DNA of 64,000 bases, taken from the NCBI GenBank assembly GCA_017522225.1, contig JAFWZR010000013.1:141419-205418 (forward strand). The letters run 5' to 3'. The stretch's first letter is position 1, and the number at the start of each line of letters is the position of its first letter. Origin of the DNA: Clostridia bacterium (lineage in GTDB: Bacteria; Bacillota; Clostridia; Oscillospirales; Acutalibacteraceae). Position numbers and translations under genes: made by a program. Below are positions 8,308 through 14,297 of this stretch, one piece after another. A model generated the notes under the pieces. The model had not been told where the DNA came from, searched no databases, and worked only from the letters and a program-made list of their open reading frames with translations.

Positions 8308-11300
8308 TTAAAATCCGAAAAAGCTTATCTGTGTACTCTCGGGCAAGCCCTCAAGCGCACCGCAAGCCGCAAGTGTTTCCATAACGGACTTACTGATGCC
8401 TGCACGCTGCTGCAAATCTTCGCGTGACATATATTCGCCCTCTCCGTCGTCACGTGCTTTCATAAGTGCAATTGCAGCAGATTCACCCGTACCTGACATT
8501 GACGAGAACGGAAGTCGGATTTTGCCGTCCTCAATTTTATAAATGGTTGCGTGTGATTTATAAAGGTCAACGGGCAGGAATTCCACGCCGCGTGCCATCA
8601 TTTCATTCACAACCTGCATTGAAGTGAAGATGCCCTCCTCCTTTGCCGTTGCTTCGTGTGCCTGCATCTTCATCTTTATCTGACGCATACATTCCTTAAC
8701 AGCATCTCTGCCCTTCATTATAGCAACCGTGTCAAGGTCCTCGCCTCGTACCGACATATACGTTGCATAATATTCAAGCGGATGATAAACCTTGTACCAC
8801 GCAAGACGCATAGCCGCAATAACATAAGCCGCCGCGTGAGCCTTCGGGAACATATACTTGATTTTCATACACGAATCGATATACCACTGCGGAACATTAT
8901 GGTCACGCATCGCCTGCATATGCTCCTCTGTCAGAAGCTTTGTTGCGTTACCCTTACGCACAATTTCCATAATCTTGAACGCCATATCAGGCTCAAGTCC
9001 CTTATGCATAAGGTAAACCATAATGTTATCTCGCGTACCGATAACCTCCGCAATCGTACACGTGCCGTTTTTGATAAGCTCCTGCGCATTGCCGAGCCAA
9101 ACGTCGGTACCGTGAGAAAGTCCTGAAATCTGAAGCATTTCAGAGAAGTTCTTCGGCTTTGCTTCCATAAGCATCTGACGGACAAACGGTGTGCCGAGCT
9201 CGGGAAGAGACAGCGTACCTGTCTCGCAATCGATATCCTCGGGTGTTACACCGAGAGGCTCGGGAGTTGTGAAAAGCTTATAGAGCTCAGGGTCACAGAC
9301 ATCTGCCTCAAACACCTTGATGCCCGTTGAGTCTTCAAGGTGTTTGTACAGCGTGGGAACATCGTGGCCGAGGTTATCAAGCTTAAGAATTGTATCGTGA
9401 AGTGAGTGGAAGTCAAAGTGCGTCGTACGAAGACCACCGCTGACATCGTCTGCGGGGTGCTGAATGGGAGTGAAGTCCTCCGCATCGTTAACGGCAGGAA
9501 CAACAACCATTCCGCCCGGATGCTGACCTGTTGTCCGTTTAACACCGACGCAACCCTTTGTCAGTCTCTCCTCTTCTGCTTTATTGATTGTAACACCCTT
9601 GATTTCTGCCCATTTTTTAACAAAGCCGTAGGCAGTTTTATCGGCAACCGTACCGATTGTACCTGCCTTGAAGGTATGGTCAATACCGAAAAGCTCTTCC
9701 GTATAGCGGTGAGCGTAGAACTGATATTCACCGCTGAAGTTAAGGTCGATATCGGGCTGCTTGTCACCCTTGAAGCCAAGGAAGGTTTCAAACGGAATAT
9801 CGTGGCCATCACGGTGCATCGGTGTTCCGCACACGGGACAATCCTTCGGCGGCATATCAAAGCCTGAGCCGACAGAGCCGTCCTCAAAGAATTCGCTGTG
9901 CTTACACTGTCTGCACACATAGTGCGGAGGCAACGGGTTAACCTCAGAAATACCTGCCGCGTGAGCAACGAACGATGAGCCGACAGAGCCTCGTGAGCCG
10001 ACATAATATCCGTGCTCTTCAGAGTTATAAACGAGCTTCTGCGCAATCATATAAAGAACACCGAAGCCGTTGGAAATAATCGACTTTAGCTCCTTATCAA
10101 GACGCTTTGCAACATTCTCGGGTACGGGGTCGCCGTAATCTCGCTTTGTTCTTTCCCAACAGATTCTTGTAAGGTCCTCGTCTGCACCCTCAAGGCTGGG
10201 CGGGAATGTGCCTCTGGGGAACGGAGTCATTCCATTTTCGCACATATCGGCAATCTTGTTTGTATTGGTAATAACGATTTCTCGTGCAGTTTCCTCACCG
10301 AGGTAGGAAAACTCCTCGAGCATATCGTTGGTTGTTCTTAAGTAAAGCGGAGCCTGCTCTGCCGCATCCTTGAAGCCCATTGTGGTCATAAGGATTTCAC
10401 GGTAAATCGAGTCACCTTTTTTCATAAAGTGAACGTCACCCGTTGCCACAACAAGCTTGCCGAGTCTGTCTGCAATGCCGATAAGACGGCGGTTATGATC
10501 CTGCAGGTCATAGACCGTACGGACATCGGCATATTTTTCGTCATCCGAACGCACCATAAACGAGTTATTGCCCGTCGGCTGAACTTCAATATAGTCGTAG
10601 AATGAAGCAACCTTTATAAGCTCCTCGTCCGGTTTACCGTCCATCATTGCACGGTAAAGCTCACCTGCCTCACACGCACTGCCGATGATAAGACCTTCAC
10701 GCAGCTGCATAAGTCTGTGGCGAGGAATACGCGGACGCTTTTTGAAAAACTTAAGGTTTGATTCTGTAATATGCTTATAAAGATTCTTGAGTCCCTGAGT
10801 ATTCTTGACAAGGAGAATGATATGGTATGTTCCCTTTGTCTCCTTTACCTCGTTCATATACCCTGCAGGGATTTCCTCACCGTCTTTAAAGCCGTAGCTG
10901 TCGTAAAATTCATCGTCATCCACAAGGTAGCCTTCCATACCGTAGATGATTTTGATACCGAGCTTTGCGGCAGTGTTACAAGCCTCGGGGAAAGACTGAA
11001 CACAGCCGTGGTCGGTGATTGCAATTGCCTTATGTCCCCATTTTGCAGCACGGGTTACAAGGTCCTTTGCACTTGCCATACCGTCCATAGCAGACATATT
11101 TGTATGAAGATGAAGTTCAACTCGCTTTTCGTCGCAAGTGTCCTTCTCCTCTATTTTTTCAATTTCAGTAATCGCTCTTGCCGTGATGATGTATGTGTGC
11201 TGGTATGTATCCATAGTGATTGCACCGCGTACAAGAACAGTCATGCCCTCTTTAAGTGAGCTGACGATATCACCGCACTTTTTCTTTTCGCCGAAAACCT

Positions 11301-12123
11301 TTACGATATAGGACGATGTATAGTCCGTAAGGCTGAAATTAATAATGCTGTATTTACCGTCTTTTGATTCGCGTGTATCAACGCTGAAGATATCACCCCA
11401 GATTACAACCTCACCGTCTTCGGGGAAGCATTCTGCAATAGGCTTCGGCTTCACCTTGATAACCGTACCGTAGAGTGCCTTTGCATTTGAAAGAGAAATA
11501 GGCAGATCCTCAAAGGTCTGCACAGTGGGATTCTTTGGTGCAGGTTCACCTGCCGAAGGCTTGACAACAACCTTTTTGGGCTGTGCATCAAGCAGTTTTT
11601 TATTCTCCTTCTGCTGAAAAGTCTTTAATTTTTCTATATCCTCCTCAACGGATTCCGTGCTGACAAAATCAACACGGACAAGCCGCTCAAAGCGACTGTC
11701 GAGCGTGTCACGGATAAACTTGTCGCATCCGAGATTTATGAGTGTGTCCTTGCCGTTCTTCGCAAGAAAAACGGTCAGCTTATCCTCGTTGAGGTTGTAT
11801 TGGGCTCCGTCAAGAATTGACTTTGCCGCGGGGAAGTTTTCGCAGATTTCTTTAACAAATCCGCTCAGATAATTTATATCGAGACTCTCCGGAGGAAATC
11901 GATAGTCCATTTTTATGGTGCGTAAATCCATCAGTCGCCTGATTTCATCCTTTGCCTGTATGATAACGGAATTATCAACAGGCGTGTCAAAACGGACAAC
12001 CATACTGACTGCACGGTCAGCAAGAGTTGCCTCTATGCTTTCGACGGTTGCTCCGCCGAAATAAGCCAATATACTGCTGTCAAGATAGTTGCCGAAAAGT
12101 TCTGAAAAGCTTACCGACTTCAC
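8308..12123 (-). CDS. polC: DNA polymerase III alpha subunit, PolC type, without exonuclease domain
   Basis: Replicative polymerase of 1271 aa, against about 1437 aa for Bacillus subtilis PolC. Visible in order: an N-terminal domain with a linker to about 200, an OB fold around 215-325, PHP part 1 (333-401, RVELHLHTNMSAMDG, ITDHG), PHP part 2 from 432 (YHIILLVKNTQGLKNL, RPRIPRHRL), a zinc finger (C737, C740, C762, C765), and the palm motif PDIDLNF (D791, D793). In PolC the DEDDh proofreading exonuclease sits between the two PHP parts. Here a linker of about 30 residues (402-431) joins them and no FDVETTG-like motif exists. The start is GTG at 12123. It sits in the conserved ispG-polC order. 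Confidence 0.95.
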   Translation of the reverse strand: MKSVSFSELFGNYLDSSILAYFGGATVESIEATLADRAVSMVVRFDTPVDNSVIIQAKDEIRRLMDLRTIKMDYRFPPESLDINYLSGFVKEICENFPAAKSILDGAQYNLNEDKLTVFLAKNGKDTLINLGCDKFIRDTLDSRFERLVRVDFVSTESVEEDIEKLKTFQQKENKKLLDAQPKKVVVKPSAGEPAPKNPTVQTFEDLPISLSNAKALYGTVIKVKPKPIAECFPEDGEVVIWGDIFSVDTRESKDGKYSIINFSLTDYTSSYIVKVFGEKKKCGDIVSSLKEGMTVLVRGAITMDTYQHTYIITARAITEIEKIEEKDTCDEKRVELHLHTNMSAMDGMASAKDLVTRAAKWGHKAIAITDHGCVQSFPEACNTAAKLGIKIIYGMEGYLVDDDEFYDSYGFKDGEEIPAGYMNEVKETKGTYHIILLVKNTQGLKNLYKHITESNLKFFKKRPRIPRHRLMQLREGLIIGSACEAGELYRAMMDGKPDEELIKVASFYDYIEVQPTGNNSFMVRSDDEKYADVRTVYDLQDHNRRLIGIADRLGKLVVATGDVHFMKKGDSIYREILMTTMGFKDAAEQAPLYLRTTNDMLEEFSYLGEETAREIVITNTNKIADMCENGMTPFPRGTFPPSLEGADEDLTRICWERTKRDYGDPVPENVAKRLDKELKSIISNGFGVLYMIAQKLVYNSEEHGYYVGSRGSVGSSFVAHAAGISEVNPLPPHYVCRQCKHSEFFEDGSVGSGFDMPPKDCPVCGTPMHRDGHDIPFETFLGFKGDKQPDIDLNFSGEYQFYAHRYTEELFGIDHTFKAGTIGTVADKTAYGFVKKWAEIKGVTINKAEEERLTKGCVGVKRTTGQHPGGMVVVPAVNDAEDFTPIQHPADDVSGGLRTTHFDFHSLHDTILKLDNLGHDVPTLYKHLEDSTGIKVFEADVCDPELYKLFTTPEPLGVTPEDIDCETGTLSLPELGTPFVRQMLMEAKPKNFSEMLQISGLSHGTDVWLGNAQELIKNGTCTIAEVIGTRDNIMVYLMHKGLEPDMAFKIMEIVRKGNATKLLTEEHMQAMRDHNVPQWYIDSCMKIKYMFPKAHAAAYVIAAMRLAWYKVYHPLEYYATYMSVRGEDLDTVAIMKGRDAVKECMRQIKMKMQAHEATAKEEGIFTSMQVVNEMMARGVEFLPVDLYKSHATIYKIEDGKIRLPFSSMSGTGESAAIALMKARDDGEGEYMSREDLQQRAGISKSVMETLAACGALEGLPESTQISFFGF

Positions 12124-12181: not shown

Positions 12182-13231
12182 TTATAATTTTTCTATTTCT
12201 GCCAATAATTCTTTGACGATGTCTTTCTCGTCAATTTTTCTTAAGATTTCGCCCTTCCTGAAGAGCATTGCACAGCCGTCTCCGCCTGCAATACCGATAT
12301 CCGCCTCGCGGGCTTCACCCGGTCCGTTAACAACGCAGCCCATTACGGCTACCTTGATTTTCTTTGTGCAGTCACGAAGAGCGTTTTCAACCTCATTCGC
12401 AACGCTAATAAGGTCAATTTTTGTTCTTCCGCATGTAGGACACGAAACAATCTGCACACTATCAGACTTAAGTCCGAGTGCCTTGAGTATGTCGTGACCT
12501 GCATAAACCTCGTTCACAGGATCATCCGTAAGCGAAACGCGGATTGTGTCGCCGATACCGTGCATAAGAAGACTGCCGATACCTGCACTTGATTTGATAA
12601 GTCCCATACGCGCCGTACCTGCTTCGGTTACACCAAGGTGCAACGGATAACTGCATCTCTCTGCCACGGTTTCGTATGCTTTAATCATATTTTCAACATT
12701 TGACGATTTGATTGAAATTACAATATCGTCAAAATCAAATTTTTCGAGTAAGGATGCGTGATACATTGCACTCTCTGCCATTGCTTCGGGAGTAGGTGCA
12801 CCGTACTTTGCAAGAATTTCTTTCTCAACCGAGCCTGAATTGACACCGATTCGGATAGGAATATTCTTCGATCTGCAAGCATCAACAACGGCCTTTACCC
12901 TGTCATCCGAGCCGATGTTGCCGGGATTTATGCGCACCTTGTCAACACCTGCCGCAACCGCTTCAATTGCAAGACGGTAGTCGAAATGAATGTCTGCGAC
13001 AATTGGAACCCTGACAGCCTCTTTGAGTGCAGGAATAAGACCGACGGCATCCATATCGGGAATTGCTCCGCGGATAACCTGACAGCCTGCTTTTTCAAGC
13101 TCGATAGCCTGTTTTACACTCGCTTCAAAATCGTGAGCAGGCTTATTGAGCATTGACTGCACACTGACGGGTGCGTCACCGCCGATGAAGATATTGCCGA
13201 CCTTAACTTTTTTAGTCATTCTGCGTTCCAT
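12182..13231 (-). CDS. ispG: 4-hydroxy-3-methylbut-2-enyl diphosphate synthase
   Basis: Iron-sulfur enzyme of the MEP isoprenoid pathway, converting MEcPP to HMBPP. Visible in 349 aa: VSVQSMLNKPAHDF near the start, VADIHFDYRLAI, VRINPGNIGS, the RIGVNSGSVE segment, and cluster cysteines in SCPTCGRT plus VMGCVVNGPGEA. I chose ATG at 13231, 8 nt after a GGAGG; the longer TTG frame would start inside that ribosome site. Together with dxr four kilobases upstream in the same operon, this gives two MEP-pathway steps next to uppS, which uses the product. Confidence 0.95.
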   Translation of the reverse strand: MERRMTKKVKVGNIFIGGDAPVSVQSMLNKPAHDFEASVKQAIELEKAGCQVIRGAIPDMDAVGLIPALKEAVRVPIVADIHFDYRLAIEAVAAGVDKVRINPGNIGSDDRVKAVVDACRSKNIPIRIGVNSGSVEKEILAKYGAPTPEAMAESAMYHASLLEKFDFDDIVISIKSSNVENMIKAYETVAERCSYPLHLGVTEAGTARMGLIKSSAGIGSLLMHGIGDTIRVSLTDDPVNEVYAGHDILKALGLKSDSVQIVSCPTCGRTKIDLISVANEVENALRDCTKKIKVAVMGCVVNGPGEAREADIGIAGGDGCAMLFRKGEILRKIDEKDIVKELLAEIEKL

Positions 13232-13253
13232 TGTCCAGACCTCCAAAGAAAGT

Positions 13254-14297
13254 TTATTTTATAAACAACGTGTAGATATCTTTAAATGTGATAGCAACCA
13301 TAAACAACAGCAGAAGCACCATTCCGATGCCGTGCACCCAAGCCTCGTATTTCTGATTTATCGGCTTGCGTCTGATAAGCTCGATAAAGAGGAAAAGAAG
13401 TCTGCCGCCGTCAAGTGCGGGTACAGGTAAGAGGTTGAATATACCTATGTTTATTGTGATGAGTGCCATCATTGTGAGAAGTCCCGTGTAATCCGATGTT
13501 TTAACGGATTCCTGTGTTGCGTCCGAAACAAAGTCAACAACGCCTACAGGGCCCGAAACATCCTTAACCGAGTATTTGCCCGTTATAAGGTCAAAGAGAC
13601 TCAGCCATACCATGCGGCAGATACTTGCTGACTGCTTGAAGGTATCCTTAAAAACAGTGCCTGCGGTTTTATCCACACCGAGGATTACAACCTGTGACGC
13701 ATTGAGTTCAACGTCTGTGAGTTCGATTTTTTCGCCCTCACGCTCGATCGTCATATCAGCCTTACCGTCTGTACGGCTGAGAAGATATGCAACATCCGTA
13801 TAATAAAGAACCCGTCTGCCGTCAATTGTCAGCACCTTATCTTTTGATTTAAGACCGTTGTATTCAGCAACCTGCTTTGAGTCAACATTGAAGCTGTGGA
13901 TATGGTTTGTACCTGCGTATCCGTCGGAGATGCCGAGCGTGATTGCAACAAGGATAAGACCGAGAAAGATGTTGACAAGCGCACCTGCAACAACAATGAC
14001 TATCCTCTGCCAACACGGTTTTTTATTGAACGCGCGTTCATCGTCGCTCTCTTCATCCTCGCCCTCCATACTGACAAATCCGCCAATAGGAAAAAGACGT
14101 ACGGAATACTGCGTTTCACCCTTCTTCTTGCCGAAAAGCTTCGGCCCCATTCCCATCGAAAACTCGTTGACCTTAACCTTAAAGAGCTTTGCAAAAGTGA
14201 AATGACCAAGCTCGTGCACCATAACGATGATGCCGAAGAAAAGTATCGCAACAAGTATTGTCCATTTGCTTGCGATAAAAGATAAAATTTCTGCCAT
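13254..14297 (-). CDS. rseP: Site-2 protease, RseP/RasP family (M50)
   Basis: Intramembrane zinc metalloprotease that cuts anti-sigma factors and remnant signal peptides inside the membrane. Visible in 347 aa: HELGH (H28, E29, H32) in the first membrane segment, GMGPKLFGKKKGETQYSVRL after it, a single PDZ-like region about 125-200, the PALDGGRLLF aspartate motif near residue 293, and a C-terminal membrane helix. One PDZ domain is the Gram-positive arrangement. The dxr-rseP order is conserved in many bacteria. A possible client is the sigma/anti-sigma pair at 59754-61251, which is only an inference. Confidence 0.93.
   Translation of the reverse strand: MAEILSFIASKWTILVAILFFGIIVMVHELGHFTFAKLFKVKVNEFSMGMGPKLFGKKKGETQYSVRLFPIGGFVSMEGEDEESDDERAFNKKPCWQRIVIVVAGALVNIFLGLILVAITLGISDGYAGTNHIHSFNVDSKQVAEYNGLKSKDKVLTIDGRRVLYYTDVAYLLSRTDGKADMTIEREGEKIELTDVELNASQVVILGVDKTAGTVFKDTFKQSASICRMVWLSLFDLITGKYSVKDVSGPVGVVDFVSDATQESVKTSDYTGLLTMMALITINIGIFNLLPVPALDGGRLLFLFIELIRRKPINQKYEAWVHGIGMVLLLLFMVAITFKDIYTLFIK

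Follow-up and report, generated by a model that had tools for sequence, protein, structure and literature searches.

The PolC-type DNA polymerase encoded by the analysed stretch of DNA (64,000 nucleotides of contig JAFWZR010000013.1 in the Clostridia bacterium assembly GCA_017522225.1, hereafter the window) is devoid of the DnaQ-type (DEDDh) exonuclease domain that related PolC proteins carry as an insert in their PHP domain. The state of this insert changes repeatedly among relatives, a pattern which suggests numerous separate losses of the domain within one bacterial family. The enzyme's other nuclease site, the zinc-type site of PHP, is intact in every relative that was examined. Judged from sequence comparison, it is fairly probable that the PHP nucleases of PolC and of its partner polymerase DnaE1 make the DnaQ domain redundant, which would lead to its repeated loss.

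Absence of the exonuclease insert from the window PolC

The polC gene is an open reading frame of 1271 aa with a GTG start. Its product was identified as PolC by the NCBIfam models NF001688 (PRK00448; 1482.6 bits against a cut-off of 873) and TIGR01405 (1344.7 against 1043.45 bits). Pfam analysis recovered the PHP, DNA_pol3_alpha, finger and HHH_6 domains, together with a marginal N-terminal domain and an OB match below cut-off. The former, the NTD-II domain (PF11490, residues 85–177), barely exceeds its threshold at 26.4 bits against 26.3. The latter (residues 256–320, E = 0.00072) falls below the curated cut-off and lies N-terminal to PHP, which is matched from residue 336; the OB region is supported by an alignment in which Geobacillus PolC (3f2b) begins opposite residue 233. 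The features of the gene are as follows.

8308–12123, minus strand: polC coding sequence, 1271 aa, without a DnaQ-type exonuclease insert (open reading frame; NCBIfam PolC equivalogs; Pfam)
11149–11421, minus strand: OB-fold region, residues ~235–325 (Pfam tRNA_anti-codon 256–320, below cut-off; 3f2b alignment)
10921–11127, minus strand: first part of PHP, residues 333–401, with ligands H338, H340, D347, H372 and E397 (Pfam PHP 336–506; alignment motif)
10825–10932, minus strand: 36-residue linker (398–433), the site of the DEDDh exonuclease in relatives that carry it (alignment; likewise short in 3f2b)
10423–10824, minus strand: second part of PHP, residues 434–567, with ligands H434, C484, D563 and H565 (alignment)
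9829–9915, minus strand: PolC-type zinc finger, C737, C740, C762 and C765
9745–9753, minus strand: palm aspartates D791 and D793
9376–9378, minus strand: third palm aspartate, D916
8341–8589, minus strand: helix-hairpin-helix region, residues 1179–1261 (Pfam HHH_6)

No match to RNase_T or any other exonuclease family was obtained at E ≤ 1 anywhere in the window PolC by Pfam, and relocation of the exonuclease within the protein was rejected on this basis. The PHP ligands E397 and H434 are separated by 36 residues, as opposed to 210–217 residues in 51 relatives with the insert (exo+), and approximately 175 residues are missing. The initial annotation had described this architecture correctly; its estimates of a linker of about 30 and an insert of about 170 residues are adjusted to the values given here. 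It had also described the palm and zinc-finger motifs as intact, and indeed all three aspartates and all four cysteines are present, both in this protein and in each of 142 aligned PolCs (142/142; alignment described below). D791 and D793 are taken to be the catalytic aspartates of the palm, and D916 the third palm aspartate of C-family polymerases. The protein ends, after the HHH_6 region, in QISFF, presumably a clamp-binding motif.

The window genome is a 1.58 Mb draft in 35 contigs and 69% complete, so an assembly deletion or a misread domain in a single metagenome-assembled genome (MAG) was considered. This explanation is refuted by the relatives, and its probability is negligible: none of the 17 same-genus genomes with a PolC shows an insert at the junction, and 90 distinct PolCs without the insert (exo-less) were aligned. 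Of the 18 same-genus genomes, counting that of the window, only G010 (77% complete) yielded no PolC. Fifteen of the 17 proteins were recovered as one match spanning the whole protein. The PolC of G017 is split across two contigs, with the match still running through the junction without an insert, and that of G002 is divided in frame at about residue 717, outside the junction. Named relatives, RGIG150 and UBA1767 among them, likewise have no insert. They are MAGs with titles such as Clostridia, Ruminococcaceae or Oscillospiraceae bacterium, many of them from ruminant or horse gut. When a PolC-exonuclease profile was run against the 90 aligned exo-less PolCs, none matched at E ≤ 1. The window PolC is thus truly without a built-in DnaQ-type exonuclease domain, and Pfam, the alignment and the same-genus genomes together bear out what had been proposed from the window alone.

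A gene for a PRA-CH protein lies downstream of polC on the same strand. Two neighbours lie upstream.

12182–13246, minus strand: ispG/gcpE, directly upstream of polC (Pfam GcpE)
13254–14297, minus strand: RseP-like Site-2 protease, upstream of ispG/gcpE (Pfam Peptidase_M50)

Distribution of the insert and repeated changes of state

The window's family was sampled with 80 genomes including its own, and a PolC state was assigned to the other 79: 40 are exo+, 30 are exo-less, eight are PolC-less and one contains a decayed insert. Five of these assignments were made from fragments (exo-less G031, G035 and G080; exo+ G038 and G088). In a class-wide sample of 147 genomes, 138 had a PolC match at a threshold of E ≤ 1e-60 and nine had none. 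Apart from the window's own, 20 of 137 matches, counted by eye, were continuous across the junction, and these belonged to seven other families. The junction was read in seven of the 20, one per family; all seven contained no insert and all displayed the PHP motif HHDHEHCDH.

The alignment comprised 142 distinct PolCs longer than 1000 aa, of which 90 are exo-less (19–43 residues between the ligands) and 52 contain an insert. Partial or repeated loci, DnaE hits and exact duplicates were left out, as were the PolC fragments L017, L018, L020, L021, L072, L082 and L185–L189, and L169, which has an in-frame stop. PolC trees were built without the insert columns. On the 142-row FastTree tree the exonuclease label requires 14 changes, 12 of them forced by starred branches; on a 66-row IQ-TREE tree it requires 10, with seven so forced. 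A single clade of the 28 exo-less rows was rejected (p-AU 4.6e-7). The window's genus clusters with the exo+ rows L140, L144 and L147 and the exo-less row L032 in the 66-row tree (SH-aLRT, the Shimodaira–Hasegawa-like approximate likelihood ratio test, 99). A tree of DnaE1 gave 12 changes between exo+ and exo-less genomes; it included 73 of the 79 genomes, with no DnaE1 match in G022, G026, G043, G050 and G070 and with G038 left out. Since DnaE1 is a separate gene, it is unlikely that the pattern arose by a single exo-less polC gene spreading between lineages.

The changes of state are likelier to be losses than gains, because the PolC of Enterococcus faecium, outside the Clostridia, also carries the domain within PHP (PMC12592400). 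In the PolC of G030 (L170), the insert of 185 residues gave no RNase_T match and scored 59 bits against the PolC-exonuclease profile. The DEDDh pattern is gone from it and is kept in the other 51 of the 52 inserts. By these sequence features L170 is a decayed intermediate. It is placed among exo+ rows on the 66-row tree and adjoins an exo-less clade on the 142-row tree.

Two further observations concern the occurrence of PolC. Second, shorter PolC-like open reading frames were found beside a longer PolC in G074 (L187) and in G224 (G224:C11:7213-9411); these are 794 and 751 aa long and 37–38% identical. Separately, five genomes of another family (f9; G099, G132, G180, G201 and G239), 0.8–1.1 Mb in size and 98–100% complete, gave no PolC match at 1e-60.

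Candidate proofreaders after loss of the insert

The initial annotation had offered three options for the window's lineage: a DnaQ-like protein acting in trans, use of the PHP domain, or replication at lower fidelity. Use of the PHP domain fits best. The nine PHP ligands of the window PolC are all intact (H338, H340, D347, H372, E397, H434, C484, D563 and H565) and read HHDHEHCDH, which fits the nine-ligand PHP exonuclease pattern HHDHEH[C/H]DH (PMC12926913). The same motif is intact in 142/142 PolCs of the family, 90 of them exo-less, and in the seven proteins read from other families; activity is predicted from these sites. In DnaE1 the motif is intact in 69 of 73 proteins, with the PHP of G023 and G053 unreadable in full in the stretch fetched. 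The insertion site of the DEDD domain in PolC is described as equivalent to a loop lining the PHP groove of Mycobacterium tuberculosis DnaE1, where it is 29 residues long (PMC5636811); the linkers of exo-less PolCs measure 19–43 residues. For Geobacillus PolC the same source reports that a single PHP residue is mutated and that the exonuclease activity is lacking, and in our alignment an Asn occupies the D563 position of 3f2b. From the conserved site we infer that the PHP domain of exo-less PolCs would be an active 3'-5' exonuclease supplying replicative proofreading.

The proposed course of events would be as follows. A functional PolC replicase of gut Clostridia (Ruminococcaceae/Oscillospiraceae-type) would have had the DnaQ-like exonuclease removed from its PHP loop. 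In clostridial PolC, as in the partner polymerase DnaE1, all nine ligands of the PHP site are retained, and sites of this type carry out proofreading in Mycobacterium DnaE1. The DnaQ domain would then have been one among roughly three proofreaders, and its redundancy would account for repeated loss. After such a loss, excision of mismatched primer ends would most likely fall to the PHP site of PolC itself, with the PHP site of DnaE1 and MutS mismatch repair assisting.

The genome of G034 (loci L049 and L314) measures 1.1 Mb, and its DnaE is divergent (48% identical) and has a broken PHP site. It encodes an exo-less PolC with intact PHP, a single DnaE over the model cut-off, and one RNase_T protein of 283 aa, of the ~300-aa kind described below. 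Given this gene set, no replicative proofreader other than the PHP site of PolC is recognised in it, and G034 would depend on that site alone if the stepwise account given below is true.

Proofreading of PolC in trans by a separate DnaQ-like exonuclease is quite improbable. The RNase_T search, which gave a match in 10 of 14 known genomes used as a control, gave none in nine of the 80 family genomes (85–99% complete), and all nine are exo-less. Among the 30 exo-less genomes, a further 15 contain only a protein of ~280–320 aa (the ~300-aa kind) and six contain something more; 24 of the 30 thus have at most the ~300-aa kind, and trans proofreading is unsupported as a general answer. The ~300-aa kind, assigned by length and score, is present in 35/40 exo+ but only 20/30 exo-less genomes and therefore does not follow exonuclease loss. 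For this reason L001 (294 aa), the only RNase_T match in the window genome, was rejected as a substitute. A tree of standalone DEDDh proteins and PolC exonuclease domains included eight of the ~300-aa kind, which cluster together (98/92). In that tree, where some placements rest on long branches, the PolC exonuclease domains form a clade of 16 (support 96/98) that contains none of the 25 standalone proteins. These 25 are thus not freed PolC domains, and release of the exonuclease as a separate gene was rejected on this evidence. What favours trans proofreading is the occurrence of RNase_T proteins beyond the ~300-aa kind in 6/30 exo-less, 3/8 PolC-less and 3/40 exo+ genomes, and in four of the 18 same-genus genomes (12 of the others have only the ~300-aa kind and two have none). 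The extra proteins of G016 and G017, both in the window's genus, score ~124 bits against the PolC exonuclease profile.

At least one of the standalone DEDDh proteins, L191 of G056 (321 aa), has an N-terminal part resembling Cas2; it looks like a Cas2-DnaQ fusion belonging to CRISPR and not like a subunit of the replication machinery.

That these bacteria simply replicate with lower fidelity is improbable, if less so than trans proofreading. Exo-less genomes are smaller, with a median of 1.8 Mb (30 genomes) against 2.25 Mb for 40 exo+ genomes (p = 0.0066 in a comparison that ignores phylogeny), and in Bacillus subtilis an induced mutant mutL, a proofreading-deficient polC or both gave 3.66e-7 to 5.78e-6 mutations against a reference of 9.74e-10 (PMC11890065). 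On the other side are the intact PHP sites of PolC and DnaE1 and the retention of MutS1, which was matched in 78 of the 80 family genomes, the window genome included, and over cut-off in 77. Loss of mismatch repair as a companion change was not seen; the two genomes with no MutS1 match are G043 (exo+) and G085 (exo-less).

A stronger contender, although still unlikely, is that DnaE1 has become the main replicase and PolC is secondary, such that dropping the exonuclease would have little consequence and PolC too would eventually disappear. Timinskas et al. raised this possibility for Clostridia (PMC3919608), some of which carry DnaE1 alone, and asked whether PolC acts there only in specific situations. 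In eight of the 80 family genomes (G025, G052, G053, G065, G077, G081, G047 and G054; 87–99% complete), the best matches to PolC were DnaE-level only and DnaE1 was the only replicase seen. The PolC model gave nothing over cut-off in these eight, recovering only DnaE-sized frames and short ones that correspond to PHP or to the exonuclease. The first six make up a single clade in a group of 14 rows, the remaining eight of which are exo-less (SH-aLRT 89, not starred), but G047 and G054 adjoin exo+ rows in the DnaE1 tree. Every checked catalytic residue is also kept in 90/90 exo-less PolCs, and exo-less PolC is not clearly faster evolving relative to DnaE1. The ratio of PolC to DnaE1 distances, in a test of 59 genomes (25 exo-less, 33 exo+ and one decayed; G034 was left out for its long branch), was 1.07 for exo-less and 1.00 for exo+ genomes (p = 0.076, ignoring phylogeny). 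Relaxed selection is weak at most, and the kept residues and this ratio argue weakly against PolC being a relic. DnaE1 was not matched in the window genome and is present in same-genus G016.

A broader account, less likely than not, combines the PHP explanation with the PolC-less lineages as a stepwise erosion: PolC would lose its DnaQ domain since PHP proofreads, and some lineages would then lose PolC and replicate with DnaE1 alone, with PHP as the real replicative proofreader of clostridial PolC. If true, exo-less lineages would be living intermediates between two-polymerase and one-polymerase replisomes.

Several points weigh against PHP-based redundancy as the explanation. The PHP ligands are equally intact in exo+ PolCs (52/52), and conservation is therefore no proof that PHP takes over after loss. 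A perfect PHP site is not universal, as the DnaE1 of PolC-less G065 reads HHDYEHCDH and the DnaE of G034 reads HHNDERYNY. The B. subtilis mutator strains demonstrate that the DnaQ domain is not redundant everywhere, and trees alone cannot distinguish loss from gain. The distance ratio, in a comparison that ignores phylogeny, leans slightly towards faster PolC in exo-less genomes. Proofreading could instead be supplied by DnaE1 or by a DEDD protein that the search missed owing to its divergence, and absences in the window genome mean little at its level of completeness.

Comparison with known systems

The exo-less architecture itself is already published, and the initial annotation's tentative remark that exonuclease-less PolCs had been noted in some lineages was right. 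Timinskas et al. (PMC3919608, 2013) reported that 6% of PolCs are without Exo, all of them from Clostridia and Negativicutes except one extra Thermotogae copy, and that the DEDDh insert is variable in clostridial PolC. Those proteins have the same missing PHP insertion and are paired with DnaE1, with no difference in kind from the window PolC; PMC3774996 gives further background. What is new here is the number of state changes in one family, the decayed insert, the nine-ligand PHP site intact in 142/142 PolCs, and the PolC-less clade nested among exo-less lineages. A literature search covering titles and abstract openings found no publication testing PHP proofreading in exo-less PolC. With the domain present, decayed or deleted, or PolC gone, the family offers a natural series for testing PHP as the PolC proofreader, and it bears on the role of PolC beside DnaE1 in Clostridia that Timinskas et al. 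left open (PMC3919608). The name PolC is no warrant for assuming DnaQ-type proofreading.

E. faecium PolC (9qpc) is matched by residues 432–1270 of the window PolC, its polymerase half; unlike the window protein, it contains the exonuclease between PHP strands 3 and 4 (PMC12592400). The exonuclease is absent from the same PHP site in the Gka-PolC (3f2b) and Sau-PolC constructs, but these are laboratory deletions. The 3f2b exonuclease was removed for crystallisation (PMC12592400), and the Geobacillus PHP differs from that of the window PolC in the Asn at D563. Stripped of the N-terminal and exonuclease domains, S. aureus PolC still polymerises rapidly in vitro, with a kpol of 330/s (PMC3656037). 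Mycobacterium DnaE1 likewise has a nine-ligand PHP site, and replicative proofreading there does not rely on the canonical DEDD exonuclease (PMC5636811). It differs in being a DnaE1 rather than a PolC, and its PHP activity is demonstrated, whereas that of the window PolC is predicted.

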